Shown: one piece after another, positions 16,227 through 42,159 of the stretch
Layout of the letters: every line of letters begins with the position of its first letter
How positions within the stretch are numbered: position 1 is the stretch's first letter
Virus record (IMG/VR): IMGVR_UViG_3300044617_000880
Location: 1-50,638 of that record
DNA from: a virus
Strand: one strand, 5' to 3'
DNA: 50,638 bases
Program-made: the position numbers and the translations under genes
The notes under the pieces: model-generated
Told to the model about the DNA's origin: nothing
Database searches by the model: none
What the model saw: only the letters and a program-made list of their open reading frames with translations

Positions 16227-17624
16227 ATGAAAGTCTTGACGCAACGGAACCCGCTGAACAGTGCAGAGCCCATGGCAATTGCTAGGGCTATTCTGAGGGC
16301 AAGGTGGACGACACCGCAGGGTCGGATGGGTATTTGGGAGTGGCGTGGAGAGCCGTGGGAGTGGTATGCGGGCAAGTGGGTAAGGAGGGACGAGCGGTGG
16401 TTGGAGGAGGCGCTGTGGTTGGCGATGGAGGATGCGCATATCCAGACTCCGACGCCAACGGGCATCAATACGCGGCGGTTGGGGCCTACGAGTCAGACCG
16501 TGATGAACGTGCAGCAGGCGTTGAGGGCCCTGATTCGGCTGAAGCAGAGCTATGCGCCGGCGTGGCTGGGCAATGTGGTCGATACGCCGGAGCTCGAACG
16601 GTGCGTGGCGTTTGAGGATGTGGTTGTGGACGTGCTGACGGGCAAGACGGTGGTCAGGGACGAGCTGTTCTTTGAGCCGGTGGTTGTGGGGTGCGCGTGG
16701 GACCCGACTGCGGCGTGTCCGACGTGGATGGCGTGCTTGGAACAGTGGAGTGGGGGCGATGAGAAGTGGAAGAGTCTGCTGCAGAGGGCGATGGGGGCGA
16801 TGTTGATGCCCGGCAGACGGTGGCAGCGGTGGCTGCTTATGCAGGGACGGGTCCGTGGCGGCAAGGGAACCATTATGCGGGTCGTGAAGAACCTGATGGG
16901 CGATGGTTTCAGGGGTCTGAGCATGGCTCAGTTGGCTAGTCAGTTCGGGTTGTGGGGTAGCGAGGCGGCCAGGGTGCTGAGTGTCAGTGAGTTTGGGGCC
17001 CTGAATAGCCGGGAGGGCGAGATGGCAGCCAGTACGCTCAAGAATATTGTGGGTGGGGACCCCGTGAGTATTGATAGGAAGTACATGGAGCCTATCCGGG
17101 ATGTGGTGATACCGGGTTTCTTGGTGGTGCAGAGCAACGAGATTCCGAAGTTGCCCAATAAGGGGCAGGGTTTGGCCAGCAAGATGCTGGTTCTGCCGTT
17201 TACCAATAGCTTTTTGGGCCGGGAGGACCTGCAGTTGGCGTCAAAGTTGGCGGGGGAGACTGCGGGTATTGCGGCGTGGGCGCTGCAGGGGGCGAAGGAG
17301 CTGCTTGAGGAGACCGATTCGGGTCAGTTGTGGCCAGTTCCAGCGGCGGCAGAGGAAGTTGTGGGGCGTTTCCAGTCCCTGAACAACCCCGTGCAGGACT
17401 TCTTGGAGTCCCATTTCGTGGAAAGCGAGGGGGGATTCGTCAGTACGACCAATCTGTGGGGTATCTGGAAGCAATGGAAGGCTCGAGTGGGGTATCGGGA
17501 GGAGGTGTCGCAGGCTCAGCTCGTTCATAGGATGGTTGAGGAGAGTACATGGAAGCTTGTTAGGGGTCGATTAGGGGATGAGCGCATTAGGGGCGTCAGG
17601 GGGCTGGTGGTCAAGGAGGGGTGA
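16227..17624 (+). CDS. SF3 (D5-like, P4-type) DNA helicase, 465 aa
   Basis: Residues about 185-400 form a superfamily 3 helicase: Walker A-like GRVRGGKGT at 207-215, Walker B region ARVLSVSEF at 248-256, and the FLVVQSNEIP motif near 305 (sensor Asn). The N-terminal 180 residues (WRGEPWEWYAGKWVRRDERW) are the domain found before D5-like helicases; there is no recognisable AEP primase domain, so priming must come from another protein or the host. Function: hexameric helicase unwinding the replication fork. AGGAGG lies 7 bases before the ATG. Codons are unusually G-rich compared with the other plus-block genes. Confidence 0.85.
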   Translation: MKVLTQRNPLNSAEPMAIARAILRARWTTPQGRMGIWEWRGEPWEWYAGKWVRRDERWLEEALWLAMEDAHIQTPTPTGINTRRLGPTSQTVMNVQQALRALIRLKQSYAPAWLGNVVDTPELERCVAFEDVVVDVLTGKTVVRDELFFEPVVVGCAWDPTAACPTWMACLEQWSGGDEKWKSLLQRAMGAMLMPGRRWQRWLLMQGRVRGGKGTIMRVVKNLMGDGFRGLSMAQLASQFGLWGSEAARVLSVSEFGALNSREGEMAASTLKNIVGGDPVSIDRKYMEPIRDVVIPGFLVVQSNEIPKLPNKGQGLASKMLVLPFTNSFLGREDLQLASKLAGETAGIAAWALQGAKELLEETDSGQLWPVPAAAEEVVGRFQSLNNPVQDFLESHFVESEGGFVSTTNLWGIWKQWKARVGYREEVSQAQLVHRMVEESTWKLVRGRLGDERIRGVRGLVVKEG

Positions 17625-17632
17625 CCACGTCC

Positions 17633-17714
17633 GACCAGGTTATGACCAGGGGTGTGGTCTAGGCTAAGTGCTTGTATTTCCCTTACTTATACTCTTCTGA
17701 CCAGGGAGACCAGG
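17633..17714 (+). repeat. Four direct GACCAGG repeats
   Basis: GACCAGG occurs at 17633-17639, 17644-17650, 17699-17705 and 17708-17714, in two close pairs (start-to-start 11 and 9 bases) separated by 55 bases. The same orientation and pairing suggest binding sites for a dimeric protein, for example a replication initiator or repressor. The TATACT box lies between the pairs. Confidence 0.7.
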
Positions 17715-17771
17715 TAAATAGGAAAACTAGTAAGTGATTGGGCTATGGGGTGTACGGTTTTCTGGAGACAT

Positions 17772-17798
17772 GGTCGGTGTGGTCGGTATGGTCGGAAC
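17772..17798 (+). repeat. Three tandem 9-base GGTCGG repeats
   Basis: GGTCGG is repeated with an exact 9-base period at 17772, 17781 and 17790 (GGTCGGTGT, GGTCGGTAT, GGTCGGAAC). Immediately after it comes a CGTGGGGGG copy of the dispersed motif. Iteron-like arrangement in the main non-coding region. Confidence 0.7.
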
Positions 17799-17936
17799 GT
17801 GGGGGGAAATTTTGGGACGGGTGTCCTCTTTCCCAAGGAAATAATGGACTAATCGAGGGGCCAACGGGGGGTGTGGTACCGTTCCGATCCGGTGCAAGCC
17901 ATTATGGGACTTTGCTGAGTCGTTGTTGGCGGTGTG

Positions 17937-17961
17937 CCGGGCCTTGGCTGCGCAGGCCCGG
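17937..17961 (+). other. Hairpin before the 105-aa gene
   Basis: A perfect 8-bp stem CCGGGCCT (17937-17944) / AGGCCCGG (17954-17961) with a 9-base loop, 50 bases before the next start codon. No T-run follows, so it is more likely part of a control region or 5' leader than a terminator. Confidence 0.5.
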
Positions 17962-18012
17962 ACAGCACCGCGTGGTGTTGCAGTGGCTTGGTCTCCTTAC
18001 GGAGGTTTGCTC

Positions 18013-18330
18013 ATGTCTGATCGCAAGTCCAGCGTTTCCGTTCTGCCCGCTCGTGTTGTTGTTATGCAGACTGATACCTTTACGAAGGTGTCTGTTGAGA
18101 TCTGCGCCGCGGGCAATCTGTGGCTGCCAGTGACTGCTGCGTCTTACAACATCGACGGCCGTACCGTCTTGGGGCTCCAGTGCGCTGGTGTGTCCCTCAA
18201 GGAAATGGTGTTCCGGTCGTCGGGGTTTGAGACCTTCGAGTCGAAGGAGCCGCTGTTGCGTGGCGCAGATCGCTGCGATACCACGGTGGTCCCAGTGACG
18301 GAAGTGACTGAGGATTCGTCGATCTTCTGA
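18013..18330 (+). CDS. Unknown protein, 105 aa
   Basis: A 105-residue protein of mixed, probably beta-rich character (VVVMQTDTFTKVSVEICAAG) with an acidic C-terminus. I recognise no family. GGAGG lies 7 bases before the ATG at 18013, which is preferred to longer frames that would run into the hairpin region. A rho-independent terminator follows directly, so it may be a separate, strongly expressed early transcript. Confidence 0.65.
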   Translation: MSDRKSSVSVLPARVVVMQTDTFTKVSVEICAAGNLWLPVTAASYNIDGRTVLGLQCAGVSLKEMVFRSSGFETFESKEPLLRGADRCDTTVVPVTEVTEDSSIF

Positions 18331-18336
18331 GAAGTG

Positions 18337-18371
18337 AGGCCCGGTAGCGATACCGGGCCTTACTTTATTTC
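18337..18371 (+). terminator. Rho-independent terminator
   Basis: A 9-bp perfect stem GGCCCGGTA (18338-18346) / TACCGGGCC (18351-18359) with a GCGA loop is followed by TTACTTTATTT. It ends the transcript of the 105-aa gene. The only other hairpin in the window followed by a T-rich run of this kind is the one at 38043. Confidence 0.8.
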
Positions 18372-18514
18372 GCGCGGGCGCTACCTAATACGCCTGCCAC
18401 CATCACTACCAAAAAATGGGTCGGGGTCGGCCCCCCCAACGGAGGGGGTCCTCCCCCTAGGAACTGGTGTTCAGTTCCACTGCTTCACACCTCTATCACA
18501 CAGGAGACACTCAC
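18372..18514 (+). promoter_or_regulatory. Leader region with GC-rich inverted repeats
   Basis: No gene here. The stretch holds an A-run (18411-18416), a G/C-rich part (AGGGGGTCCTCCCCCT can form a 6-bp stem), and the ribosome-binding site AGGAGA of the 96-aa gene. Since a terminator lies just upstream, a promoter for the following genes should lie here, but I find no good -10/-35 pair. Confidence 0.35.
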
Positions 18515-18805
18515 ATGCTCGGTATGTACTGCAACACTTGTGGCGGCTCAATGCTCGGCGATGGCGTTACGGCTGTGATCCACTGCGAGCGCCTCTCGGC
18601 TCTGGACTTCACAGTGGCACCGGACTCGGTTCCGGTCCACTGCACTCCGGACCCGGTCGACGGGGACATCCTCACCCCCGCTCAGGTCGCCGCTGGCTGG
18701 CACTACTGCTCTGCCTTCGACGGTCTGCTGACCAAAGGCGAGCGTCCCGAGGGTGGTGGCTGCTTCTGCGCCTCGCCCACCGAGCGCATCGGCTTTAACT
18801 TCTGA
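18515..18805 (+). CDS. Small Cys-containing protein, 96 aa
   Basis: A 96-residue acidic protein with C-x-x-C (YCNTCGG near the start), more cysteines in the middle (HCERLS, HCTPD, YCSAF) and CFC near the end. The spacing would allow a zinc-bound fold. No family recognised. The ATG at 18515 is chosen for the AGGAGA 8 bases upstream. It is the first of several small plus-strand genes divided by GC hairpins, the usual place for phage genes that act on the host early in infection. Confidence 0.65.
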   Translation: MLGMYCNTCGGSMLGDGVTAVIHCERLSALDFTVAPDSVPVHCTPDPVDGDILTPAQVAAGWHYCSAFDGLLTKGERPEGGGCFCASPTERIGFNF

Positions 18806-18814
18806 CCCTCACAT

Positions 18815-18843
18815 CCCCCGGGTGGCGCGTTGTCACCCGGGGG
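18815..18843 (+). other. GC-only intergenic hairpin
   Basis: A 10-bp perfect stem CCCCCGGGTG / CACCCGGGGG with a 9-base loop, placed about 10 bases after the 96-aa gene stop. No T-run. Same type as those at 19226, 19691, 20361 and 32407. Confidence 0.65.
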
Positions 18844-18877
18844 ACCTCACTTCACCCCTTGCATAAGGAATCACGTC

Positions 18878-19213
18878 ATGAACCGTAGCCAACTTGTTCA
18901 CATGCGTACAACCATCACTGGCGCTCGTAGTCTGCTGAGTTTCTTCTTCTACGGCAGCGTAGAGATGTGCTCACTCCGGCAGGTCCTCAAGGACGCCGGG
19001 GTTGACATTGACCTCAACCACGAGCGCGGTGGTGTCATGGACCATCTTGCCAACATCATCGAAGCCTTGGATCAGGCCATTGGTGACGGCGAGCCCGGTG
19101 ACCGCGAGCCTCACTTTCCCGCTCCGGACGCCAACGCGGACTGCTGCAATGCGTGTGGCAACTACCTCGCCCCCACCACAGTGTGCCGCTGTGAAGGCAC
19201 TGGTAATGGCTGA
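18878..19213 (+). CDS. Small protein with C-terminal Cys cluster, 111 aa
   Basis: A 111-residue protein: an N-terminal hydrophobic/aromatic helix (SLLSFFFYGSVEMCSLRQVL), an acidic middle with helices (DHLANIIEALDQAIGDGE), and a C-terminal CC-x-x-C...C-x-C pattern (CCNACGNYL, CRCEG) that could bind zinc. Unknown family. The ATG at 18878 is preceded by AAGGAA. The leader TAAGGAATCAC resembles that of the 174-aa gene at 19830 (TAGGAATCAC). Confidence 0.6.
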   Translation: MNRSQLVHMRTTITGARSLLSFFFYGSVEMCSLRQVLKDAGVDIDLNHERGGVMDHLANIIEALDQAIGDGEPGDREPHFPAPDANADCCNACGNYLAPTTVCRCEGTGNG

Positions 19214-19225
19214 TGTTCAGGCAGC

Positions 19226-19252
19226 CCCCCGCCCCACACGGAGGGGCGGGGG
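19226..19252 (+). other. GC-only intergenic hairpin
   Basis: A 10-bp perfect stem CCCCCGCCCC / GGGGCGGGGG with a 7-base loop, just after the 111-aa gene stop. No T-run. Confidence 0.65.
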
Positions 19253-19282
19253 TCCGCCCACAACTCTAATGAAAGGATTGCA

Positions 19283-19414
19283 ATGTTCAGCACTCTAATT
19301 GCTTTTCTGCTTTTTCTTCTTCTTGGCTGCATCTGGCTTGCAGTCACGACTGCCATCCACGAAGCCAGTGATCGCAAGGAGATGGGTATCCGTCTTCCGG
19401 AGGACGACCAATGA
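19283..19414 (+). CDS. Single-pass membrane peptide, 43 aa
   Basis: Begins MFSTLIAFLLFLLLGCIWLA, one clear membrane segment of about 20 residues, followed by a short polar tail (EASDRKEMGIRLPEDDQ). AAAGGA lies about 7 bases before the ATG, and the stop overlaps the next ATG as ATGA, so the two are translated together. Small membrane peptides in phage early regions often act on host membranes or as superinfection factors; a holin role is also possible, though this is far from the structural block. Confidence 0.65.
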   Translation: MFSTLIAFLLFLLLGCIWLAVTTAIHEASDRKEMGIRLPEDDQ

Positions 19415-19677
19415 GTTGGAGACAAAACTCTGATACGTACTCGGAGAACATCCCTGCTCGTGTCCACATCTTCACGGACCACCAAGGCGCAATTCACGTC
19501 ATGGTGTGGGTGAAGCCTGACAATGAACCAGAATACTGGTTGCGTCCCTTTGCTGTTGTTGAGGGTGGTCATGGTCGGTGCACACCCTACATGGGCTTGC
19601 ACGTTGGTCCCAACTACGAACACACATCTCTTCGCAAGTGGGCTCATAAGCGTGCCAACAGCAAGAGAACTTCTTGA
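19411..19677 (+). CDS. Unknown protein, 88 aa
   Basis: An 88-residue basic protein with beta-strand-like segments (ARVHIFTDHQGAIHVMVWV, YWLRPFAVVEGG) and a basic C-terminus. Not recognised. Start overlaps the stop of the 43-aa membrane peptide (ATGA), which suggests joint expression and perhaps joint function. Confidence 0.6.
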   Translation: MSWRQNSDTYSENIPARVHIFTDHQGAIHVMVWVKPDNEPEYWLRPFAVVEGGHGRCTPYMGLHVGPNYEHTSLRKWAHKRANSKRTS

Positions 19678-19690
19678 CTCCTTGTGCACT

Positions 19691-19725
19691 CCCCCCCGGG
19701 CAGCCGGACGGCCCGCCCGGGGGGG
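19691..19725 (+). other. GC-only intergenic hairpin
   Basis: An 11-bp perfect stem CCCCCCCGGGC / GCCCGGGGGGG with a 13-base loop, placed 13 bases after the 88-aa gene stop; GC-only stem, no T-run right after. Confidence 0.65.
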
Positions 19726-19829
19726 CGTATTAGATATTTCGCATTGCTCACTTAACGGTGTGCAGTGCGTTTCAGGCATCCATGTTGGATGCCTTTTACT
19801 TCCATCCTCCTACATAGGAATCACTTGCC

Positions 19830-20354
19830 ATGAAACTCGCTGACGCTCAGAAGACTCTCCTCGTCGTTCCCGGTAACTACCCCGCCATGCTGACCCTCGC
19901 TACTTGCCAGCCCGGCAAGAAGGATCCGAGCGCCACCAACATCAACGTCGAACTCGACGTCATCTTGGACTCCGGCCGCACCGTCAAGTTGTGGGACCTG
20001 CTGCCCGACATCGAGAAGAACCCCAAGACGTTCTTCCGCTACGAGCAGTACATCAAGGCCCTGGCCCTGACCCTGGCCCCGGACTTCGACCTGACCGCCC
20101 GCTCCTTCGCTGCTGAACTCAACAAGGCCAGCAACGAGGGCATCTGCTTCCAGGTCACTGTCACCATCGAGGAGTCCGCTGGCTATGCACCGCGCAACGC
20201 CATCAAGTACCTCAAGCCCGCTGACATGGACCTGATCCAGCACGTCGCTCGTGCTCAGCGCCATGACTCAGCCACTGACGCTGCTGCTCAGCCCTCCAAG
20301 CTCAGCATCAATGATCAGCAGTCCTCGCCCGATGAAGACCGCCAACTCATCTGA
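19830..20354 (+). CDS. Possible ssDNA-binding (DUF669-like) protein, 174 aa
   Basis: Begins MKLADAQKTLLVVPGNYPAM, then beta-rich (TNINVELDVILDSGRTVKLW) with a helix and a C-terminal GYAPRNAIKYLKP, followed by an acidic Ser/Gln-rich tail. The arrangement (G-x-Y ... long strands ... prN-x-[IV]-K) resembles DUF669-type phage proteins that accompany annealing/recombination ATPases and are thought to bind ssDNA; the acidic tail fits an SSB-like tail. Resemblance is modest. A hairpin follows the stop. Confidence 0.5.
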   Translation: MKLADAQKTLLVVPGNYPAMLTLATCQPGKKDPSATNINVELDVILDSGRTVKLWDLLPDIEKNPKTFFRYEQYIKALALTLAPDFDLTARSFAAELNKASNEGICFQVTVTIEESAGYAPRNAIKYLKPADMDLIQHVARAQRHDSATDAAAQPSKLSINDQQSSPDEDRQLI

Positions 20355-20360
20355 CCCGCA

Positions 20361-20392
20361 ATGGGGGTGGGTACCTGTGCCCACCCCCATTA
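20361..20392 (+). other. Intergenic hairpin after the 174-aa gene
   Basis: A 12-bp perfect stem AATGGGGGTGGG (20361-20372) / CCCACCCCCATT (20381-20392) with an 8-base loop. It lies 7 bases after the stop, and the plus-strand genes from 20414 to 28430 begin 21 bases later. Confidence 0.65.
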
Positions 20393-20413: not shown

Positions 20414-20956
20414 ATGTCCTTCTATCGAATCAACGACATCCGCCAGTCCGACATTGTCGGTAACACCCTTTCACTCGGTAACATCCCCATCCGTCTCGAG
20501 TCCGGCCGTATGGAACTCGTCGACCCCAACAACGCTGTCCCAGCCGTCGACCCCGACGGTTGCGACACGCCCAACTTCTCGCTCCGCACCTGCGACTCGA
20601 CCCACGCCGAGCGCCTCCGTTCCCTCAACCACGCCACCCGTCGCTCCGCCAACACGCTGCTCATCCAGCGTCTTGGCCACCGCACGGCCCTGGCCTTCAT
20701 CCAGCAGGACGACACGCTGTCCCGCTCCATGGCTGCGTTCTTCGGTCGCTTCAACGCAGGCGACATCGACGCATCCAATCTCCCCCCACGTGTCCGTGAC
20801 CGCAACGCCAACCCGTTCCTCCCTACCTCCGGTGACCCTGACTTCCGTCGCCGCTCTGGTTCCTATCGCCGCTATCGCCGCTGTGACTCACACCCGCAGT
20901 TGCTCGACTCATCGTGGGTCGGGCCTGCTTCTCGCCACTCCTCGGAGATCATCTAA
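20414..20956 (+). CDS. Unknown protein, 180 aa, start of the MoxR/VWA operon
   Basis: A 180-residue protein with a beta-rich N-terminal half (SDIVGNTLSLGNIPIRLESG), an Arg/His/Leu-rich helical middle (STHAERLRSLNHATRRSANT) and a basic, Ser/Tyr-rich C-terminus (RRRSGSYRRYRRC). Not recognised. A strong AAGGAG is 9 bases before the ATG. Its stop overlaps the next start (TAATG). First gene of a coupled run that leads to the MoxR ATPase and VWA protein, so it could be a substrate or partner of that pair. Confidence 0.65.
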   Translation: MSFYRINDIRQSDIVGNTLSLGNIPIRLESGRMELVDPNNAVPAVDPDGCDTPNFSLRTCDSTHAERLRSLNHATRRSANTLLIQRLGHRTALAFIQQDDTLSRSMAAFFGRFNAGDIDASNLPPRVRDRNANPFLPTSGDPDFRRRSGSYRRYRRCDSHPQLLDSSWVGPASRHSSEII

Positions 20957-21519
20957 TGTCCAACCCACTCATCCATTCCATTGCCATCAGCACCGCAACA
21001 GGAGACGGCACAATCATCTCCGTCTCCCGCACACGCACCCGTGGCAACGTCGTCGTCGCTGACCGCGTCGATGCTTGTGACTACGACTGCTTCGCCTCAA
21101 CGCCATTCGGTGGCAAGTCCGGTGTCCAGCACGAGATCCTCACCCAGCAATCCCCCGATCACTGCACCCCTGAGCGTGTGTGGGTTGAGTTCTTCGACCT
21201 GCTGTGCATGAAGCTCATGATGGCCGCTGCCATGCGTGGCACCAACATCCTCAAGGAGCAGGACGACCTCGGTCCTATCTCCCTGCCCGGCCAGCCCGAT
21301 CGTGTCGGTCTGGTCGTGGTCCTGCCCAAGAACGCCAATGAAGAGGACATCTCCATCAACGGCAAGTACATGCCCGAAGTCCTCAAGGCCATGGGCTTCA
21401 ACCCCAAGCCTGCCGCTTACCTCAAGCCCAAGCCACCAACCTTCGACCCGCTCTACAAGGACTCGCCCTACCCGGACGACTACAACGATCTGCCCTCTGA
21501 CCCCAAGTCCCCCTTCTGA
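20956..21519 (+). CDS. Unknown protein, 187 aa, in the MoxR/VWA operon
   Basis: A 187-residue protein: N-terminal beta part (IHSIAISTATGDGTIISVS), a helical middle (RVWVEFFDLLCMKLMMAAAM), a beta strand/turn (RVGLVVVLPKNANEE) and a Pro/Tyr/Asp-rich tail. Not recognised. Starts by overlapping the upstream stop; a 10-base gap with AAGGAA leads to the next gene. Confidence 0.65.
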   Translation: MSNPLIHSIAISTATGDGTIISVSRTRTRGNVVVADRVDACDYDCFASTPFGGKSGVQHEILTQQSPDHCTPERVWVEFFDLLCMKLMMAAAMRGTNILKEQDDLGPISLPGQPDRVGLVVVLPKNANEEDISINGKYMPEVLKAMGFNPKPAAYLKPKPPTFDPLYKDSPYPDDYNDLPSDPKSPF

Positions 21520-21529
21520 AAGGAACCCC

Positions 21530-21727
21530 ATGTCTGACCCCATCATGTCCCGTCTTCTCGAACTCGAGAAGAAGCACAACGCCACCATCAACACCGTCCA
21601 CAAGCTCTTCGAGAACCAGACCAGCCTGATCATGGCTGTTGACAAGAAGTACGAACTCGTCCGCACGCTGCTCACAGAAGTCCTCGAACTCATGAAGAAC
21701 CAGATCTCCAAGGAGACCACCAAGTGA
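21530..21727 (+). CDS. Coiled-coil small protein, 65 aa, before MoxR
   Basis: A 65-residue helix with heptad-like L/V/I spacing (MSRLLELEKKHNATINTVHK ... ELVRTLLTEVLELMKNQ), probably a coiled coil that forms oligomers. AAGGAA lies before the ATG at 21530. Stop and next start overlap as GTGA, so it is coupled to the MoxR gene and may be its adaptor or regulator; inferred from position. Confidence 0.65.
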   Translation: MSDPIMSRLLELEKKHNATINTVHKLFENQTSLIMAVDKKYELVRTLLTEVLELMKNQISKETTK

Positions 21728-22743
21728 ACATCTCACCCACCGCACGCGCCGCAATCCTCGCTCGCATCAACGCTGTCAAGGCAGCCACACCCATCACCAC
21801 ACGGAAGGACACCATGCCCCCCACTATCGAGCCCGAGACCCACAAGCCCGCCTTCGACGACGGCCTCTTCGCCGCCACCACCGACGGCATCTCCGTCACC
21901 GGGACCACGCCTGCCACCCCCACTGAGCGCATCGACCTCGAACTCGATGACAACCTCAAGTCGTTCCTCATGTCCATCGGCACCTCCACCGGCATCGAGA
22001 ACCTGCGCCTCATCGGTCCCGCCGGCTGCGGCAAGACCTCCATCGGTCAGTGGCTCGCACAGGAAACCAACAAGCGCCTGCTCATCATGGACTGCTCCGT
22101 GATCCGTGAGCCACGCGATTGGTTCGGCTTCCGCACCGTCCACAACGGCAGCATCCGTTGGCAGGACACCGAGTTCGTGCGCGCCGTCACCTCCGGCAAC
22201 TGCGTCATCGTCCTCGACGAGCTCAACCGTGCACCCGCCTCCGTGCTCAACGGCCTGATGCCCCTCCTCGATCATCGTCGTGCCTCGTGGATCGAGGAAC
22301 GCGGTGCAGCCGTACGCGTCGGACCCAACACCACGTTCGTTGCCACCACCAACATGGGTGCCAAGTATCTCGGTGCCTCGCCCGTTGACCTGGCCCTCCG
22401 CGATCGCTTCTCGCGTGTCGTCGAGGTCACCTACCTGCCCACCACCAAGGAGGCCATGCTGCTCCAGCGTCGTACCACTCTTGACATCGACTCGTGCGTT
22501 GCCCTCGCTCACATCGCCTCCAACACCCGTGGCAAGAACTCCACGCACGAGCCCATCTCCACCCGTGAACTGCTGGCTGCTGCCTCTGACATTGCCAAGT
22601 ACGGCCAGCAGTCCTTGCGCTACACCATCCTGTCCAAGATCGAGGACCACTCGAAGCGCGCAGCGATGGCCACTCTCCTCGCCGGCAAGTTCCCCGGCCT
22701 CGTCTCCGACACCGTCACCACCACCAACACGGAGCCCTTCTAA
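21724..22743 (+). CDS. MoxR-type AAA+ ATPase, 339 aa
   Basis: An AAA+ ATPase of the MoxR / CobS type: Walker A GPAGCGKT (98-105), Walker B VIVLDELN with Asp165 and Glu166, a sensor-1 ATTN, and an arginine-finger region RDRFSR. Residues 1-90 are a polar N-terminal extension. MoxR ATPases work with VWA-domain partners to insert metals or remodel complexes; the next gene is such a partner and overlaps the stop (TAATG). GTG start, with AAGGAG 8 bases before. Such pairs are rare in phages; the best known comparison is the CobS-like genes of some cyanophages. The target is unknown. Confidence 0.85.
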   Translation: MNISPTARAAILARINAVKAATPITTRKDTMPPTIEPETHKPAFDDGLFAATTDGISVTGTTPATPTERIDLELDDNLKSFLMSIGTSTGIENLRLIGPAGCGKTSIGQWLAQETNKRLLIMDCSVIREPRDWFGFRTVHNGSIRWQDTEFVRAVTSGNCVIVLDELNRAPASVLNGLMPLLDHRRASWIEERGAAVRVGPNTTFVATTNMGAKYLGASPVDLALRDRFSRVVEVTYLPTTKEAMLLQRRTTLDIDSCVALAHIASNTRGKNSTHEPISTRELLAAASDIAKYGQQSLRYTILSKIEDHSKRAAMATLLAGKFPGLVSDTVTTTNTEPF

Positions 22744-24857
22744 TGTTTCAACGCATCCTCGACAACTTCGACATCGATACCAGCGGCTGGTTCGACACCG
22801 ACGAGGGGGTTGCCAAGCGCAACCTCCTCAACCGCACGAGTGAGATCACCAACAAGATCTGGTCTCTCTGGGCTTGCCGCCCCATCCGTGTCCACTACGT
22901 GCCCATCGACACTATTCAGCGTCTCTCCATCACATCCGCCATCGACGCCTTCGCTAGCCACATGGACCGTTTCGTAGCCGACTGGAGGCGACAGCCCAAT
23001 GCCGGCGAGAAGATTGACATCGTCAACAACTTCATCAATGCCTATCGACACGGCGACATCTGGGACAACCCCAACACACCTTATGACCCAATGAGCGACC
23101 AAGGACCCGGCATCTACATCCCGGGCAGTCTCATCTCTGATCGCATGCTTGACCACGTTCCCGACATCTACACCCTGGCCGATGCCATCACTGGCTATGG
23201 CCTCGAGTCCATGGAGCGTGACAACGCATGCCTCAACATCGGTTACGACGGCCTCATGTTCGTGGCCGCCGCACTCAAGTCCAGCAACTTGCCACCCAAC
23301 AGCAGCAACATCACTGACCCACGCTCCGTCCATGCCGACTGCATGCTCGACATCTGGTATGCAGCCTGTGTCCGTGACATCCGCACCAAGATCCTTACCC
23401 AATGGCCGGGCTGGCACTCCATCTTCGAAGCCCAAGACTCCGTGCTCCTTCCCCCCACGGAGGAGGTTGCCTCGGCCGTCAAGACCAAGAGCAAGTACCG
23501 TTCGGAACTGCGTCGCTTCTGCATGGCCCTTGCATGGAACCTCAACGCTGCACCCGACCAGCGCATCCCGTTCCCCAAGCAGTTCAAGTCTGCCTATGAC
23601 ATGGCCGTCCAAGCGTGGCCCGGCATCGTCTCCAAGTGTCGCACCAACGAGGACCACATCTTCGCCATCAGCCAACTCGTCCATGACCTGTCTCGCATCC
23701 TGTCCCCCCACGAGGAGAAGCCCAAGCGCAGTACCACTCCTCGTCGTGGCAGCAGCGGACTCGGTCTCGACGGTGCCCCCGACAAGGACGAGTCCTTCCA
23801 CCGCAGGCAGACTGCAAGCGGTGACTCCGTCATCGAGCCGTCCAAGGAAGAGGCCGACGCTGACCCCACCAACTCGCCCTGTGTGGGCATCCCCCCACCA
23901 TCCATCTTCTACGACATGATGACTGAAGAGCAGATGGCTCCCGTTCTCGCACGCAATCCCAAGTTGCTTGAGTACGCAGTCAAGTCCAAGCGTCTGCAGG
24001 ACAAGGTCCGTGCTCCCATCGCAGAGGCCATCAGTGCTGCTGCGTGGCACGTGCCTGCCCCACCGCCCACTGACCACGCTCAACTCCAGGGTGTGCTCGA
24101 CGAGGGCAGCCTGCTCAACCTTGCAGCCTTTAACGATCCGCGCATCTTCTCCATCCCCCCCGAAGCAGGCCACGGGCAGATCGCCATCGCCGTCGTCCTC
24201 GACTCTTCCTCGTCCATGTCCCTCAACGTCTACCCCACGGAGATCAACCCATCCACCAACAGGTACGAGCCCAGTCACAACGTGATGCAGGAAGCACTTG
24301 CATTCCTTGCCGGTCTCAAGGACGGACTGGCCCGTGCATCCAACGTCTCGCTGTCCTCCTTCGCTTACTTCGGCGGTTGTGTTGCCGATGACAGCGACTA
24401 CATCCTGCACACCAAGTCTGATCCATCTGCAGACAGCAGTCTCTCCGTGTGCAACATGCGTCGCCTCGACACTGACTCGGCTCTCCTCTACTCGTACCCC
24501 ATGGGTGGCACTCCGTCTGCAACCGCGATCAAGTCTGCGTCCGATTACCTCTTTGCTCACCACCCCGACGCAACCAAGATCATCATCCATCTCACTGACG
24601 GTGCACCCTGCGGTGGCGTCGAAGACCCTTATCACAACCAGGAGTCCTTCGACGATGGCATCTCCAGCGTCCGCCACATCGTTGACAACATCCCCATTCC
24701 CGTGTTCACCGTAGGCTTCGGCTTCGGCATTGATGCACAGACTCTCCGTCAGCAGTACAATCACGACAAGTGGTTCAAGGTTGAGTCCCCGCTGGATGCC
24801 GTGCCCGTTGCATGCCAGCTCATCACAGGAATTGGTCAGTGTCTTGCCAACCAGTAG
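22743..24857 (+). CDS. VWA-domain (CobT-like) protein, 704 aa
   Basis: Residues 1-330 are helical with no recognised motif; 330-390 are disordered and charged; the C-terminal VWA domain begins near 478. Its metal-ion-dependent adhesion site is seen as D487-S-S-S-S, Thr590 in GGTPSATAI, and Asp619 in LTDGAP. This is the layout of CobT-type and MoxR-partner proteins, where the VWA binds a metal and the client, and the AAA+ ring provides force. It overlaps the MoxR gene by one base. A gapless open frame on the other strand is caused by its strong C/G third-position bias and is not a gene. Confidence 0.85.
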   Translation: MFQRILDNFDIDTSGWFDTDEGVAKRNLLNRTSEITNKIWSLWACRPIRVHYVPIDTIQRLSITSAIDAFASHMDRFVADWRRQPNAGEKIDIVNNFINAYRHGDIWDNPNTPYDPMSDQGPGIYIPGSLISDRMLDHVPDIYTLADAITGYGLESMERDNACLNIGYDGLMFVAAALKSSNLPPNSSNITDPRSVHADCMLDIWYAACVRDIRTKILTQWPGWHSIFEAQDSVLLPPTEEVASAVKTKSKYRSELRRFCMALAWNLNAAPDQRIPFPKQFKSAYDMAVQAWPGIVSKCRTNEDHIFAISQLVHDLSRILSPHEEKPKRSTTPRRGSSGLGLDGAPDKDESFHRRQTASGDSVIEPSKEEADADPTNSPCVGIPPPSIFYDMMTEEQMAPVLARNPKLLEYAVKSKRLQDKVRAPIAEAISAAAWHVPAPPPTDHAQLQGVLDEGSLLNLAAFNDPRIFSIPPEAGHGQIAIAVVLDSSSSMSLNVYPTEINPSTNRYEPSHNVMQEALAFLAGLKDGLARASNVSLSSFAYFGGCVADDSDYILHTKSDPSADSSLSVCNMRRLDTDSALLYSYPMGGTPSATAIKSASDYLFAHHPDATKIIIHLTDGAPCGGVEDPYHNQESFDDGISSVRHIVDNIPIPVFTVGFGFGIDAQTLRQQYNHDKWFKVESPLDAVPVACQLITGIGQCLANQ

Positions 24858-24870
24858 AAGGATCCGCACT

Positions 24871-25152
24871 ATGCCATCTGAAGCCAACGGAACTAACTTG
24901 CGTACTCTGTGGCACGCTTTCAAGCAGCGACCCATACCCGCCATCACACTTGTGGATCTGCGCCATGAGGACACAGGAGCCCGCTACCCAACCCTTTGCA
25001 TCATCGAGTCTCACCCCGACGGTGACAAACTCTTCCCCTACGCCTTCATGATCGACCGTGATCAGCACGAACTCTGTCGCAAGCTCATCGTGCCCGATCA
25101 GTACGAAGCCATCTGGGATTGGTGCATCCCCCCACAGAAGGAGCCCGCATGA
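24871..25152 (+). CDS. Unknown protein, 93 aa
   Basis: A 93-residue protein, mixed alpha/beta (PIPAITLVDLRHEDTGARYP; FPYAFMIDRDQHELCRKLIV). Not recognised. An AAGGA precedes the ATG at 24871; its stop overlaps the glycosylase start as ATGA, so the two are co-translated. Confidence 0.6.
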   Translation: MPSEANGTNLRTLWHAFKQRPIPAITLVDLRHEDTGARYPTLCIIESHPDGDKLFPYAFMIDRDQHELCRKLIVPDQYEAIWDWCIPPQKEPA

Positions 25153-25838
25153 ACCTACCACTGCTGCCCTCCGCCCCATCCTGCACTGCCTGCGAACTGC
25201 ACAAGCACGCGAAGAACCCTGGAGTCCCCGGGGTTTTTCTTTCTGATTCACTGCCACCCTCACCCACCACACCCATGGTCGCAGTGCTCGGCATGAACCC
25301 AGGCTTCCAAGAGGACCGCTTCAACGAGCCATTCGTTGGGCCATCAGGCAAGATGCTCAAAGAGATCTACCTCCCATCCATCCTGCCTCACGCCTCGGTC
25401 ATCCTTCTCAACGCAGCCCGCTGCTACACGCCAGCCGCAGCCCCGCCAAAGCCCCGTCACTTCCGCACTTGTTTCCCTGCCTTCTCTGCTCAGGATCTCA
25501 ATGCCGTTGGCCAACTCATTGCCCCCCACGTTCCCAAGATCCTGCTCTGCGTCGGTGCCCACGCCATCTCCACTGTCACCAAGTTCACACAGCCCAAGCC
25601 CTGGTCGCTAACCTCTGCATTCAACCGACAAGGTACACCGACCGGACTATGGGGAGACTGGCAACTCTTCACCACGTTCCACCCAGCCGCAGTTCTCCGC
25701 TCACGCAACCTCCTCCACCCCGTCGCAGACCACATGACCCTCGTGCACTCAGCCCTCATCGGCCAGATGCCCGTAGCATCCAGCCCACGCATCGTCACCC
25801 CCTTCTCACCCATTGACTATGCACAATCAAATCCATGA
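25149..25838 (+). CDS. Uracil-DNA glycosylase, family 4/5-like with Fe-S cysteines, 229 aa
   Basis: Removes uracil from DNA. Motif A-like LGMNPGFQEDRFNEPFVG (47-64), motif B-like TFHPAAVLR (176-184), and four cysteines C12, C15, C92 and C108 in the arrangement of the [4Fe-4S] cluster of family 4 enzymes; the last two are 16 apart, as I recall for the Thermotoga enzyme. The usual G-E-A-P-G is G-M-N-P-G here, so the catalytic or base-pocket residues may differ. The phage would use it to repair deaminated cytosines or to attack uracil-containing DNA. In an operon with polymerase and nucleases. Confidence 0.85.
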   Translation: MNLPLLPSAPSCTACELHKHAKNPGVPGVFLSDSLPPSPTTPMVAVLGMNPGFQEDRFNEPFVGPSGKMLKEIYLPSILPHASVILLNAARCYTPAAAPPKPRHFRTCFPAFSAQDLNAVGQLIAPHVPKILLCVGAHAISTVTKFTQPKPWSLTSAFNRQGTPTGLWGDWQLFTTFHPAAVLRSRNLLHPVADHMTLVHSALIGQMPVASSPRIVTPFSPIDYAQSNP

Positions 25839-33693: not shown

Positions 33694-34070
33694 ACGAAAT
33701 ACTGCTAGGCTCCAACCCTGAGATGAAGCCACAGTATCGGCACCGAGTCAACGGCGGACCTCGGACCCCACGCTCCGACATGGGGTCCAAGAAGTCTGAG
33801 CTGCAGGCTCACGCCGACATGCTCGAGCGCATGGTCACCCGGTTCTCAGAGCGCATCCGTGTGCTCGAGGGACTGCACACCATGCGTGTGGAAGAGGCGG
33901 GCCTCATCATCTCGTCCGTGTTCATGCTGTACCAGCGGTGGCGCGATGAGCACCCCGACGAACCGGACCGTGGCGAGTCCTTCATGGTGTGGATGGAACG
34001 ACTGACCGCCGAAGAGGTTGTCTCATACGCCATGGGTAAGTGGGACTCACTGCCCGGGAACGTTGAATGA
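33690..34070 (+). CDS. Unknown helical protein, 126 aa, last gene of the plus block
   Basis: A 126-residue protein: polar basic start, then helices (ELQAHADMLERMVTRFSERI; SVFMLYQRWRDEHPDEPDRG). No family recognised. It is coupled to the upstream stop (ATGA), and its end overlaps the convergent 1330-aa gene by 24 bases, so no terminator separates the two blocks here. Confidence 0.6.
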   Translation: MNEILLGSNPEMKPQYRHRVNGGPRTPRSDMGSKKSELQAHADMLERMVTRFSERIRVLEGLHTMRVEEAGLIISSVFMLYQRWRDEHPDEPDRGESFMVWMERLTAEEVVSYAMGKWDSLPGNVE

Positions 34071-37000
34071 CGGATTGAACTGGCGAATCGACTGACGCTG
34101 ACGCGCCGTGTCCGAATTCTCCAGCCCACCCGGGGGCAAGCCAAACTGCTCTGACATTCCAGACAGCGACTGCTGGTACTGCTCACGCATATCAGCCGGC
34201 ATCGTGTCAAGCATGCGCTCTGCGAGAGGGGCTGAGCGCAACTGCACGGCACGATCCCACTCGCTGCTCTTCACAGTCATGGGCACGCCATATCGCTTCT
34301 TGTATTCCGCCTCGATGACGCCGGCACCAGACATGTTATTGCCTAGCACCGCGTCCTTGTACTTCCGGCGCATGTCCACCATCTCCGCACGGTTGGCCAG
34401 CAGGAACTTGGTGGCCTCCATGGGCGACTGGAACTTCTTGAAGTCTGCACCAATGCCCCGCATCACCAAGCTCAGCGGCGAGTCAAACGACTGCAACGTG
34501 CCATCATCACGGTACACCGGCACCTGACCCTCAGGCGTGCGGTTGCCCCAGTCAGCGTACTGCGACTGCAACAAGCCGAAGGGTCCACCACCTGGGACGG
34601 CGGGCAGTGCACCCAACGCCTTCTGCAGGGTGACGCCACCCGGTACCAGTCGGAACGCCGCCTGTCGGATCTGCTCCCGATCACCTTGGAGTAGTCCCCC
34701 CACGAGTTGTACCGGAATGTCGATCACTGGGGGGACGGGGATTCCCTTAGTGAAGAACTGGTTGGGCAACTGGGAAATGGCGGCACCGGACAAACCGGGA
34801 GAGAGGTCGAGGCCCAGAAGGTTCTTGCCCACCTCGTAGCCCACTGCGCTCAGACCCAGGATGCGCATTGCGTCACCGGCCAGAGCTGGGATCTCGCCGA
34901 ACACCGGGCCACCAATCTTCTGCAGACCGAACTCACGCACGCCACCACCCATCTGCTGCGACAACATGAAGTTGCCGATGGTGCGGCTGGGGTACTGCAG
35001 GAACATGCGGAGGAAGGGATTGCCCAGCACCTCACCCTTCTGGAACATCTTCATCTGGGTAGCGGGGCTGTAAGAGAAGTTCACCATCGACTGCAGTTCC
35101 TGGATGTGATCCAGAACGCGGCTCGTGGGCAGGTTCATCCCCGTACTCTTCTGCATCTTGTTGTACCAGCTGTACCCAGCCTCGGCGACCACGATGCGGT
35201 TGAGGGCTTCAGCGGTCTGGAACAACTTCAGGGGAGCATCAATGGTCAGGAACTTCAACAGACCGGGCTTGCCCTCAGGCGGCTTCGAGTACACAGCAGA
35301 TTCGAAAGTGGACATCACACCCGGGGTAATGCCGATGAGGTCACGGCCGTACGACTCCTTGCCCGCAAGACGGATGTGCTTCTGCCACAACTCCATCTGG
35401 GTCTGGGGGTCAATACGCAGTGGATGCTTGGCACGCTCCGCCAGGTAACCACCCATCTGCTTGAGGGCGGTGCCGTATGCCTTGATGATCTCGGGCGAAC
35501 CCATCCACGTGGCTGCCCACTGGAAAGGCTGCAGCATGTTCCACGCGGCAGACGCCATGTTGAAACCCAGGTGGGTGGCGTAGAGGTAACCCGTCAGACC
35601 ACCAGCAGCGTGGGCCGCATCCAGTTCGTATGCCGACATGTTGCCGTAGTCGCGCATCTGCTTGACCATGGCCTTGCCCAAGTAGCCGCCGTTGTTCTCG
35701 ATCCACTTTGCGGGGGCCGAGTTGGCGGTGGAAAGTGCTAAGTTGCGGGCCTGCTGACTCATCTGCAGACCAAACATCTGGGTAGGCTTGGTGCCACCAA
35801 ACAATGAGGGGAGCACACCCTTCTCAAAGTATTCTCGGGTAGCCGGCGACTCACGGCCCATGACCACGTCAATTGCATCCGCCATGCTAAGACGGGTAGG
35901 TGTTGTTTCCCCTAGAAGAGCAACGTCAGGCCGCAAGCTAGTTTGACCAAGAATTCGCAGGTCATTCTGCAAGCTATTTATTCTGCGCTTCAAACTTTGA
36001 ATGGCTTCAAGTTGACGGGGGGTTGGACTGGCAATATCCGTAAACGTTTTAAGACGCTGGTGTGCCTGCCGAAGATCTCCACGCAAACCAGGGGCAAGCT
36101 CGTGAGTCTGAAGAGTCTCTGGAACAGTGTATTCGTTTCCCGTCATTAACTCAGGATCAACACCCATCTGCTTCAGTCGACGCTTGGTTGTAGTGCTAAG
36201 TTCATTAACTTCGTTGAGTCGACTACCTGCAAGTTGTTGGGCACGAGGACGTCGAACTGCCCCAAGAACAGTTTCACGTAGTGCGGGCGTAATCTCAAGG
36301 GCGTGTAAGCCAATGGCCGAGTGCATGTCGCCCACGTAGTGACGCATTGCCAACTCGTGGTTAAACGTGTGCGTTGCTACACGACCAGTAGTTACCCTTT
36401 GCAACTCGTTATTTGTGCGCGCCATCACTTCTTCAAGAGTTGCGTCTTGGTACCCAGGTACAACAACGTTTGCCTTACGGTTGCCAATAAGACGCTCAAT
36501 AATCTTTAGATCGTTTGGATCTACAGGCAAAGCATTGCCTCGACGGGGCAGTGCCACACCCGGAACTTCCATTACGTCTTTTGCCCCACGACCACGAAGA
36601 ATGGCGTCCGCGTCAGTAGGCCCAATACCAACCAGCTTGCCTTTTTCTTTTCCATAAAGGCTAAAAGTGTTACGGGGCATGTACGCAGATTCCATCTGAG
36701 GCCCCAACGTCCTACGAATCAAATCGTAAACATCGTCCAACTTGATACCTGGAGTGCCACGACGCAGCGCTTCCTTTGCCCACTCTGGCAAGATTCGATC
36801 AATGGTGTCCATGCCCACAAGTGAGTCAAGAGTCCACTCTTCAAGCGTGGGATTTTTCTTGTTGCCACGTTGTGCACGCATCCAAACACGGGCAACTTTC
36901 TCGGGATCAATTTGAAAGTTAGGAGGAAGTTCGTTGTTGGGCCCCAACACGCCAAACATGTACTTTTTCATTTCCAGCCGATATTCCTCACCGGCCTTCG

Positions 37001-38039
37001 CGTAGTTTGCAAACTCCTCTTCAACACCGTTTCTACGAGCCCATTTCATTGCAAGGTCCTTGTCCAAACCTTCCACGTTGAAGATGTTCTGCACATCGTC
37101 TTCAAGGACGCGGTACTTAGGCAACTCAGCCCTAGGCCCATGCACACTGCGGATTAAGTCGTGAGCGGCCCGGAGTGTGTCTCGGTCATCAACGGTAATA
37201 GGAGCACTGAGCAGTTCATGCTCTACACCCGCAGCATCCGTAATCTTGGCTCCAACTGAAAGCTTGCTTTTGACCTGCTGATACTCCGCTTCTGTAAGCG
37301 TGCGGGCAATCTCGCGTCCCCCCACTTTTAGTTTGGCGACTCGAGTGAAGCCGACCTTGGGGAAGTTGGTGGTGCCGCCGTCAAGGCTGCCCGAAGCCCA
37401 CATATGAGAAAGAAGGTTCAGCTCTTCAAGGAAAGCGCGGGTTTCAGGATTATCTGGGCGAGTAGGGTCAAAGTCGGTGACTCCGTGCTTTGCCTTCAGT
37501 GCCTCCACAAGTTTGCCACGCGCTGCGCCCACAACGTCTGCTTGCTTCTGCTGAAGCTTGAGCAGGCGGGACGTAACGGACTGCACGATCTCGCTGGGTG
37601 CAGTGGTCTCCTGCATGCCCACGAGGGAGGCAAAGGGGGTGAGGCGGAAGAGCTCAGCCACCTTGCCAAATGCCCGGCCGGCAAACTTGCTCTTGTCTAT
37701 TTCACCCAGACCTTGGATCAGCTTGCCACCCGTCTTGATGAACTGGCCGCGGCCGATGGGGCTCGTGAGGAACAGCAACCACACCAGCGGATTCATTGCC
37801 AAGTCAATGGTGGTGTCCATGACGGGGTTGCCGCCATGTGCCTTCTTCAGACGCTGGGCATAGGAGTCACGCTCAGCAGGACTCAGCGACTCCTGCGACA
37901 TGATGGTGCGGATCGCACGACCCAGAGACCCCTCGCCGTCATAGATCTGTGTCAGAATTGTGGCCGGTGCATCGTAGATGCGAACCGGTTCAAACTCGGG
38001 GAATCCGTTGTCGTCGAGTTGTTGCTGCTGTGGTGTCAT
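34047..38039 (-). CDS. Very large internal virion / DNA-ejection protein, 1330 aa
   Basis: A 1330-residue protein, the largest in the genome. Size and place at the end of the virion block fit the large core protein of podoviral ejectosomes, which forms a channel across the host envelope. One hydrophobic stretch is seen near 90 (DLAMNPLVWLLFLTSPIG), and the rest is mostly helical and charged with a Pro/Gly-rich end. The middle (roughly 35,890-37,320) has distinctly A/T-richer codons than both ends, so it may have been exchanged by recombination. A terminator-like hairpin lies only 4 bases before the ATG. No lytic transglycosylase motif is evident. Confidence 0.7.
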   Translation of the reverse strand: MTPQQQQLDDNGFPEFEPVRIYDAPATILTQIYDGEGSLGRAIRTIMSQESLSPAERDSYAQRLKKAHGGNPVMDTTIDLAMNPLVWLLFLTSPIGRGQFIKTGGKLIQGLGEIDKSKFAGRAFGKVAELFRLTPFASLVGMQETTAPSEIVQSVTSRLLKLQQKQADVVGAARGKLVEALKAKHGVTDFDPTRPDNPETRAFLEELNLLSHMWASGSLDGGTTNFPKVGFTRVAKLKVGGREIARTLTEAEYQQVKSKLSVGAKITDAAGVEHELLSAPITVDDRDTLRAAHDLIRSVHGPRAELPKYRVLEDDVQNIFNVEGLDKDLAMKWARRNGVEEEFANYAKAGEEYRLEMKKYMFGVLGPNNELPPNFQIDPEKVARVWMRAQRGNKKNPTLEEWTLDSLVGMDTIDRILPEWAKEALRRGTPGIKLDDVYDLIRRTLGPQMESAYMPRNTFSLYGKEKGKLVGIGPTDADAILRGRGAKDVMEVPGVALPRRGNALPVDPNDLKIIERLIGNRKANVVVPGYQDATLEEVMARTNNELQRVTTGRVATHTFNHELAMRHYVGDMHSAIGLHALEITPALRETVLGAVRRPRAQQLAGSRLNEVNELSTTTKRRLKQMGVDPELMTGNEYTVPETLQTHELAPGLRGDLRQAHQRLKTFTDIASPTPRQLEAIQSLKRRINSLQNDLRILGQTSLRPDVALLGETTPTRLSMADAIDVVMGRESPATREYFEKGVLPSLFGGTKPTQMFGLQMSQQARNLALSTANSAPAKWIENNGGYLGKAMVKQMRDYGNMSAYELDAAHAAGGLTGYLYATHLGFNMASAAWNMLQPFQWAATWMGSPEIIKAYGTALKQMGGYLAERAKHPLRIDPQTQMELWQKHIRLAGKESYGRDLIGITPGVMSTFESAVYSKPPEGKPGLLKFLTIDAPLKLFQTAEALNRIVVAEAGYSWYNKMQKSTGMNLPTSRVLDHIQELQSMVNFSYSPATQMKMFQKGEVLGNPFLRMFLQYPSRTIGNFMLSQQMGGGVREFGLQKIGGPVFGEIPALAGDAMRILGLSAVGYEVGKNLLGLDLSPGLSGAAISQLPNQFFTKGIPVPPVIDIPVQLVGGLLQGDREQIRQAAFRLVPGGVTLQKALGALPAVPGGGPFGLLQSQYADWGNRTPEGQVPVYRDDGTLQSFDSPLSLVMRGIGADFKKFQSPMEATKFLLANRAEMVDMRRKYKDAVLGNNMSGAGVIEAEYKKRYGVPMTVKSSEWDRAVQLRSAPLAERMLDTMPADMREQYQQSLSGMSEQFGLPPGGLENSDTARQRQSIRQFNPSFNVPGQ

Positions 38040-38042
38040 ATG

Positions 38043-38078
38043 AAAAGGCCCCGGAGAGCTTTCGCGTCATCCGGGGCC
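38043..38078 (-). terminator. Terminator-like hairpin abutting the start of the 1330-aa gene
   Basis: On the minus strand, GGCCCCGGA / TCCGGGGCC (9-bp perfect, 14-base loop) is followed by TTTT, then C-A-T and the ATG at 38039. A classical rho-independent terminator would reduce transcription into the next gene; the G-rich arm also overlaps where its ribosome-binding site should be, so it may control translation instead. Confidence 0.65.
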
Positions 38079-38097
38079 CGTTCCGGGGGATCTTAAC

Positions 38098-38139
38098 TCA
38101 GCGGCAGCAGCCGCCCTTCTTCGGGCCCTTCTTCTTCAT
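38098..38139 (-). CDS. 13-residue basic Cys peptide
   Basis: ATG at 38139 with an excellent ribosome-binding site (AAAGGAG, 6 bases before) opens a frame for MKKKGPKKGGCCR and a TGA. It lies between the stop of the 248-aa virion-like gene and a terminator. The strong ribosome-binding site and placement argue for translation, but 13 codons is short enough to be chance. Lys/Gly/Cys content resembles very small phage peptides with C-terminal CC; function unknown. Confidence 0.5.
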   Translation of the reverse strand: MKKKGPKKGGCCR

Positions 38140-38153
38140 GGCATTCTCCTTTC

Positions 38154-38900
38154 TTAAGCAAGACGTTCGCGGTAACGGATCTGCAGCGTACCAACATAGT
38201 TGGTGGTTGCAGCACCACGAGCCTCGATACCGATGACATTGCCAAGAGTCGTCGTGGTACCCACAGTAACAGGGCCCGGCACGACGTTGTTGGCTTCGGT
38301 CACCTCAAGGCTGTTAGGGGCTGCAGTCGGGATTGTAGTCAAGTTGCTGTTGATTGCACCCACCACGATGGTGTTGTCAGTTGCAGCAGACATTGGCGCC
38401 GTCAGCACCGACTTGAACGACGTAGCTTCACCCGATGCGCCAGTGCTGGTGCCTGTAGCAGCAGTGTTGATAATGACAGTGCCCGTAAGGTTGGTCGCAC
38501 TAATTGGGTAGGTACCCAACTGGGAGATGTAAGCGTCAGCCGGGATGTTGGTAAGGACAGCACCGCTATCCTGATCCACCAGTCGATCGCCAACACTCAG
38601 CGAACCAGAAACGGTGCTAGCAATAGTCACCGTTGTACCAGCCGCGACTGAGCAGGTGTAAGTACCAGTCCAAGTCGCGCCAGTGGGGGTAGCACCTGGC
38701 ATAAAACCGACGTCAATCGTCAGGCTTGCCTCGCCGTTACGAGTGATAAGACGAACGTCGTCGATGACGATCTGACGCTTCTCAACGTAGAGCAGCGGGG
38801 TAATTGCACCACGAGTGATGGTGCTACCGTGAAGGGGGAACGAGATCGTCTGAAACTGATCCTGATAGTGTTCGGCAACAACGGGGTTTTGTCCAGGCAT
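38154..38900 (-). CDS. Probable beta-rich virion protein, 248 aa
   Basis: A 248-residue T/S/A/G/V-rich protein with strands and turns (FPLHGSTITRGAITPLLYVE; GTYTCSVAAGTTVTIASTV), no catalytic motif, ending in QIRYRERLA. Likely a capsid decoration, collar or fibre protein; compare the similar-looking 273-aa protein at 28984. The ATG follows the upstream stop after 4 bases with only a weak ribosome-binding site. Confidence 0.6.
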   Translation of the reverse strand: MPGQNPVVAEHYQDQFQTISFPLHGSTITRGAITPLLYVEKRQIVIDDVRLITRNGEASLTIDVGFMPGATPTGATWTGTYTCSVAAGTTVTIASTVSGSLSVGDRLVDQDSGAVLTNIPADAYISQLGTYPISATNLTGTVIINTAATGTSTGASGEATSFKSVLTAPMSAATDNTIVVGAINSNLTTIPTAAPNSLEVTEANNVVPGPVTVGTTTTLGNVIGIEARGAATTNYVGTLQIRYRERLA

Positions 38901-38904
38901 TTGT

Positions 38905-39336: not shown

Positions 39337-39340
39337 TGGA

Positions 39341-40069: not shown

Positions 40070-40071
40070 GG

Positions 40072-40440: not shown

Positions 40441-40449
40441 GGCGGTAGA

Positions 40450-42120: not shown

Positions 42121-42159
42121 GGATTATGCCTTCCTCAAGTTTGACATGATTTGACTTTC

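Follow-up and report, generated by a model that had tools for sequence, protein, structure and literature searches.

A MoxR–VWA gene pair in a tailed-phage replication block that appears to belong to a fast-changing, exchangeable cassette and probably acts as a protein-remodelling motor

Midasin (Rea1) strips factors from pre-ribosomes. For NorQD, the subject of mechanistic work (PMC13036017, PMC9976466), it has been suggested that the N-domain sets target specificity and that the MIDAS binds the target (PMC9976466). In viruses, pairs named 'cobST' have been published in tailed viruses of eight orders and are core genes of cyanophages (PMC8651126), jumbo phages carry a MoxR–vWA pair for which a role in the virion has been proposed (PMC7824862), and haloviruses and Acidianus two-tailed virus (ATV) carry MoxR–VWA pairs (PMC7911831). 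A role in the tail has been reported for the ATV proteins (cited in PMC7824862 and PMC7911831). Although such pairs are widespread in tailed phages and are usually filed as cobalamin genes, we found no test of that assignment.

Here, we analysed a MoxR–VWA locus in an IMG/VR virus record, 50,638 bases long and classed as linear, that is referred to below as the window. The window encodes a large terminase subunit, a primase-helicase, PolA, an ERCC4-type nuclease, an exonuclease, a Sak4-like protein, and a uracil-DNA glycosylase (UDG); because of this combination of terminase with replication and recombination genes, we assign it to a tailed phage. No near relative was found among named phages and no close relative in any cellular genome, with terminase matches being distant only. 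A sequence-only reading of the locus had described five genes that overlap or nearly touch, from p180 to a VWA protein, and all five open reading frames are present as described. The features of the region are as follows.

19830..20354, + strand: p174, 174 aa, upstream of p180, with a weak match to PHROG 2300
20360..20392, + strand: strong hairpin, rich in G+C and with no U tract, lying between p174 and p180
20414..20956, + strand: p180, 180 aa, with an Arg-rich C-terminal part; co-transcribed, judging by position
20956..21519, + strand: p187, 187 aa, fast-evolving, with a TAATG overlap with p180
21530..21727, + strand: coiled-coil-like protein, 65 aa, after a 10-nt gap behind p187 that holds a ribosome-binding-like site, AAAGGA
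21724..22743, + strand: MoxR / CobS-like clade-7 AAA+ ATPase, 339 aa, with a GTG start inside a GTGA overlap with the coiled-coil gene
22743..24857, + strand: VWA partner, 704 aa, with a TAATG overlap with MoxR
24868..25152, + strand: 94-aa protein, directly 3' of the VWA gene
25149-25838: UDG-superfamily gene, within the replication block

The MoxR–VWA cassette lies between the primase-helicase gene and those for UDG, PolA, ERCC4 nuclease, exonuclease, and Sak4, on the same strand as the replication genes, while terminase and putative tail genes are on the minus strand, away from it. A terminator-like hairpin with a T tail (19774-19794), just 5' of p174, is a plausible transcription-unit boundary, and the operon may start at the p174 gene immediately past it. 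Hairpins of unrelated sequence also occupy the p174–p180 site in four related contigs (L005, L052, L059, and L049); since unrelated sequences fold at the same place, it is structure rather than sequence that is kept there. Between the primase-helicase and p180 (16227-20354), several short genes are missing or strongly diverged in relatives. Searches of Pfam and PHROG gave no match for p180, and searches of Pfam, PHROG, and PDB gave none for p187. Compared with close relatives, all five open reading frames differ mostly at third codon positions, with dN/dS of 0.02-0.48, lowest among the longer genes for MoxR (0.04-0.05) and highest for the 65-aa protein (0.26-0.48). This third-position bias, together with dN/dS well below 1, indicates that the five are genuine translated genes.

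The 339-aa protein matches Pfam AAA_5 (PF07728) at 80.8 bits (cut-off 22) and carries Walker A (GPAGCGKT, 98-105), Walker B (VIVLDE, 161-166), sensor-1 (ATTN, 207-210), and arginine-finger (RDRFSR, 226-231) motifs. By its domain and these motifs, it is a MoxR-type (clade 7) AAA+ ATPase. Profile comparison with the PDB gave the AAA modules of midasin as the best match, along with NorQ and CbbQ, and the best PHROG was phrog_249 (111 bits), labelled porphyrin biosynthesis.

Its 704-aa partner comprises a largely helical N-domain (~1-330), a low-complexity linker (~331-405), and a C-terminal VWA domain in which the MIDAS is formed by DSSSS at 487-491 (D487xSxS), T590, and D619, residues kept in nine family sequences. 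The single-sequence Pfam match was weak (19 bits, below the cut-off of 27), while a profile of the protein matched the VWA partners of nine other phages at E=6e-10. A structure model built from six close sequences was too poor to use (mean pLDDT 37); adding the more distant relatives of clades B and C, described below, raised the mean to 60, a middling confidence. A fold search with this model matched the Rea1-MIDAS and NorD VWA domains, and the model, at its middling confidence, has hairpin-like inserts at ~499-510 and ~541-574, candidates for the 'finger' that in NorD enters the ATPase pore. The protein is thus a MoxR-partner VWA protein, with a VWA fold and a DxSxS–T–D MIDAS. None of the nine window-family VWA proteins has an HExxH metallopeptidase motif, which is present in eight of ten sampled VWA partners of other phages (missing in ANB28 and TSP4). 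We considered a decayed HExxH domain as the origin of the N-domain (CVRDIRTKILTQWPGW versus ILEDERIERICGFNFPG) and rejected it, as the N-domain profile comparison gave E=0.3 against 0.68 for a reversed control; fold matches of the full-length model to phage VWA partners are compatible with such an origin, although the model is weak.

IMG/VR searches recovered relatives in three clades. Clade A, the window's own (L002-L006 and L011), has MoxR identities of 90-99%, while clades B (L052, L059, and L060) and C (L062) are 64-65% identical to the window in MoxR and 34-37% in VWA. The Walker and MIDAS residues are intact in the window and the pair is complete, as the sequence-only reading had held. 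Loss of these residues in relatives was looked for and not found: they are kept in every relative checked, down to the ~34-37% VWA identity, with the Walker motifs conserved in clades A and B and the same residues invariant once clade C is added. Within the VWA protein, change is faster in the N-domain than in the VWA domain (36 versus 42% identity to clade B, and 27 versus 43% to clade C).

Clades A and B share the order p174–p180–p187–short helical protein–MoxR–VWA–94-aa protein–UDG–PolA, and clade C, whose sequence begins inside p180, has the same order from there on. The short helical protein of clades B and C corresponds to the coiled-coil protein by position only. The slot between p187 and the coiled coil is empty in the window, L004, and L005, holds a ~100-aa gene in L002, L003, L006, and L011, and a ~180-aa gene, gene X, in clades B and C. 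Upstream, p174 occurs as clearly distinct versions (about 40-50% identical to one another) that are swapped between clades. In one close pair, L052 and L059, identity is 42% for p174 and 67% for p180, compared with 98% for p187, 99% for MoxR, 92% for VWA, and 98% for PolA; the window and L005 are 44 and 59% identical in p174 and p180, and 88, 90, 90, and 99% in p187, MoxR, VWA, and PolA. Because only p174 and p180 differ sharply in both pairs, they move independently of the rest.

The cassette itself diverges out of step with its surroundings. Clades A and B share 80-94% identity in their replication genes genome-wide, and the flanking genes follow this backbone (primase 87%, 94-aa protein 85%, UDG 82%, or 80-82% across clade B, and PolA 86%), whereas identity falls to 33% for p187, 64% for MoxR, and 37% for VWA. 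We compared genes by the ratio of the A–B distance to the mean distance to clade C. This ratio was 0.38-0.54 for polA, UDG, the 94-aa protein, and ERCC4, with intervals not overlapping those of MoxR (0.90), VWA (0.94), and p187 (0.93), although saturation inflates the VWA and p187 values and MoxR alone is clearly unsaturated. The unsaturated MoxR distances make clade B the outlier, and p180 is intermediate at 0.64. As the 94-aa protein diverges at the backbone rate, the exchanged cassette would end at the VWA stop codon. Read most simply, these distances suggest that p187 through the VWA stop codon has been exchanged as one unit between related phages, presumably by recombination. Elsewhere in the window, large putative tail/fibre genes on the minus strand (34047-46349) show mostly 25-46% identity to their clade B counterparts, and in contig G004 several of these genes have been replaced as well, with the MoxR–VWA cassette still clade-A-like.

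A profile search found p187 only in contigs that also carry MoxR–VWA, apart from L049, which stops before the pair's place, and every p187 relative with enough flanking sequence has MoxR–VWA downstream. We therefore regard p187 as a candidate adaptor for the pair. The proposal that all five genes form one coupled unit does not hold, given the independent exchange of p180 and p174 and the extra genes between p187 and the coiled coil; of the suggested linkage of the first three genes to MoxR–VWA in relatives, the part concerning p187, which diverges jointly with the pair, stands, and that concerning p180, which is swapped independently, does not. Nor does the five-gene block recur in distant phages: p174, p180, p187, gene X, and the coiled coil had no significant relatives at twelve other phage MoxR–VWA neighbourhoods. 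Collectively, p187, the variable slot, the coiled coil, MoxR, and VWA appear from these comparisons to form a fast-changing, exchangeable cassette that is novel relative to known phage pairs.

Contrary to the sequence-only reading, the pair itself is not unusual in a phage, being published (see above) and found by us as ten adjacent pairs in public phage records. Using tblastn, we detected MoxR relatives in 33 named phage records; the VWA protein alone gave no match, and other VWA families were reached by profiles only. A MIDAS-bearing VWA gene lies directly beside the ATPase in 10 of 15 loci opened, and ~3 kb off in HHTV-2. At eight of the ten adjacent-pair loci, genes nearby carry an annotation for replication, recombination, or a nucleotide function (DNA polymerase, helicase, primase, DnaB, DnaE, guanylate kinase, RecA-family ATPase, and Holliday resolvase); a ninth (L036) has polymerase-like and RecA-like open reading frames, judged by eye from translations. 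In crAss-like cr114_1 and gut phage MT835473 (L041 and L092), the gene after a CobS-like ATPase encodes ~270-300 aa with no MIDAS, possibly a reduced VWA partner.

Identities for helicase, MoxR, and VWA, respectively, are 96, 91, and 67% between ChisanaKitsune and UBSmoodge, 62, 59, and 42% between GMA6 and ChisanaKitsune, and 50, 54, and 28% between ChisanaKitsune and Cantare. The VWA protein thus changes much faster than MoxR and helicase in Gordonia/Brevibacterium phages, and somewhat faster in a gut-phage pair. Across the other phages compared, MoxR changes at about the rate of the replication enzymes, with no sign of exchange.

Given the AAA_5 and PDB profile matches, the kept catalytic and MIDAS residues, the Rea1 and NorD folds, and the VWA profile match, the pair is very probably an ATP-driven protein-remodelling motor of the MoxR–VWA type, similar to NorQD and midasin. 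MoxR would assemble into a ring, presumably a hexamer by analogy with NorQ and RavA, that would be plugged by the VWA domain in a direct physical interaction. The MIDAS metal site would grip the target, and the fast-evolving VWA N-domain, together with p187, may choose it. The pair would be made together with the replication genes, and the motor could then remodel or disable a host protein complex during takeover. As the NorQD N-domain is suggested to set specificity, a fast-changing VWA N-domain points to a changing target, and joint exchange as a fast-changing cassette is a further hint of a host-side target. Among changing targets, a host complex is the most economical, although fast change alone is no proof; it could instead mean that constraint is relaxed, or that the adaptation is to a phage protein which itself changes fast. 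We favour, tentatively and at somewhat less than even confidence, a motor made with the replication genes that remodels or disables a host complex, as opposed to the phage's own replisome or virion or cobalt insertion.

The likeliest alternative is that the motor remodels the phage's own replication and recombination machinery (primase-helicase, PolA, Sak4, or exonuclease), for instance by unloading or assembling complexes in the manner of midasin. The cassette's setting between primase-helicase and the UDG-to-Sak4 genes would fit, although it also fits a host target, as would the position of MoxR–VWA pairs in unrelated phages amid DnaB, primase, DnaE, PolA, and resolvase; the presence of the pair among replication genes in eight annotated phages would also be in keeping with a target in replication or recombination. 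If its partners are conserved, however, an adaptor should be so too, and the low VWA and p187 identities between clades A and B, beside replication proteins that are well conserved, weaken this reading to the point where we consider it somewhat unlikely. Of the two roles raised by the sequence-only reading, host remodelling is possible and favoured, and maturation of DNA machinery fits the location of the genes but not their rate of change. A role as a virion-assembly chaperone has precedents in ATV and the jumbo-phage proposal (PMC7824862), but the location of the window pair in the replication block and on its strand, apart from the minus-strand terminase and putative tail genes, argues against it, as do the comparable location in other phages and a VWA protein without the HExxH motif; we think it improbable.

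A phage-borne conflict module directed at competing phages, akin to the cellular MoxR–vWA ternary systems (PMC7159879), would account for cassette-wise exchange and a variable accessory slot, and the clade C MoxR (L062) passes the Pfam bpMoxR cut-off (32.1 versus 27). Even so, no VMAP, iSTAND, FtsH, beta-propeller, or effector domain was found among the cassette proteins, and PADLOC gave no meaningful match, those seen looking like P-loop cross-matches, which leaves this reading more improbable still. The least probable is a CobST-like cobaltochelatase, in which the pair would work with a host CobN on cobalt insertion, increasing the cobalamin available to ribonucleotide reductase, a role put forward for viral cobST (PMC8651126). 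Homology to phage genes annotated as CobS/CobT or, in phrog_249, as 'porphyrin biosynthesis' is in its favour, but the pair matched neither the CobS (TIGR01650) and CobT (TIGR01651) NCBIfam models at E<=0.01 nor Pfam CobT_C (PF11775). Moreover, none of the 20 virus records examined encodes CobN, and the large subunit of ribonucleotide reductase was found in only three of the 20 and in none of the window family, although the host could supply both.

A host-directed motor could be extended to a broader proposal that we regard as rather unlikely. In this, p187, the slot gene, the coiled coil, MoxR, and VWA would constitute a horizontally exchanged, target-switching motor for host takeover or counter-defence in which the VWA N-domain and p187 are the swappable parts that select the target, and a constant motor with a fast VWA protein would characterize phage MoxR–VWA pairs generally, replacing the cobalamin reading. 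The observations that separate the readings are the absence of CobN and near-absence of ribonucleotide reductase, the lack of a CobS/CobT match in the window family, a replication-module site, a constant motor with a fast partner, and joint p187 divergence. They narrow the problem to what is gripped by the VWA N-domain and p187, a question addressable in cultivated phages with the same pair.

The window pair belongs to a phage type that is already widely known. It is a variant of that type, set apart by the lack of CobST and peptidase features and by p187, which is clade-specific and diverges alongside it, and is not a new kind of system. It resembles the CobS/CobT-like pairs of GMA6, ChisanaKitsune, Mae-Yong1326-1, BS162P1, Cantare, TSP4, and HHTV-2 in having a homologous MoxR (23-33% by tblastn) beside or near a MIDAS-bearing VWA protein, a location among replication genes, and VWA as the faster-evolving part. 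In contrast to those pairs, the window has p187 and a coiled coil (with gene X in relatives), none of which was found there, and joint cassette divergence was seen only in the window family. The jumbo-phage group 2.2 MoxR–vWA-metallopeptidase (PMC7824862) shares the two-gene layout in a tailed phage but has a peptidase motif that the window lacks. Ternary conflict systems (PMC7159879) likewise have a MoxR–VWA core with variable accessory components, but are defined by third components and effectors, none of which was found in the window. Midasin provides the best PDB profile match to MoxR in its AAA modules and a fold match to VWA in its MIDAS domain, although it is a single giant eukaryotic polypeptide serving ribosome assembly. 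NorQ/NorD acts on a membrane oxidoreductase, and no such target gene was seen in the window phage; it is nonetheless like the window pair in combining a MoxR ATPase with a VWA partner built of an N-domain, a disordered linker, and a C-terminal VWA domain, a likeness that extends to fold and profile matches.
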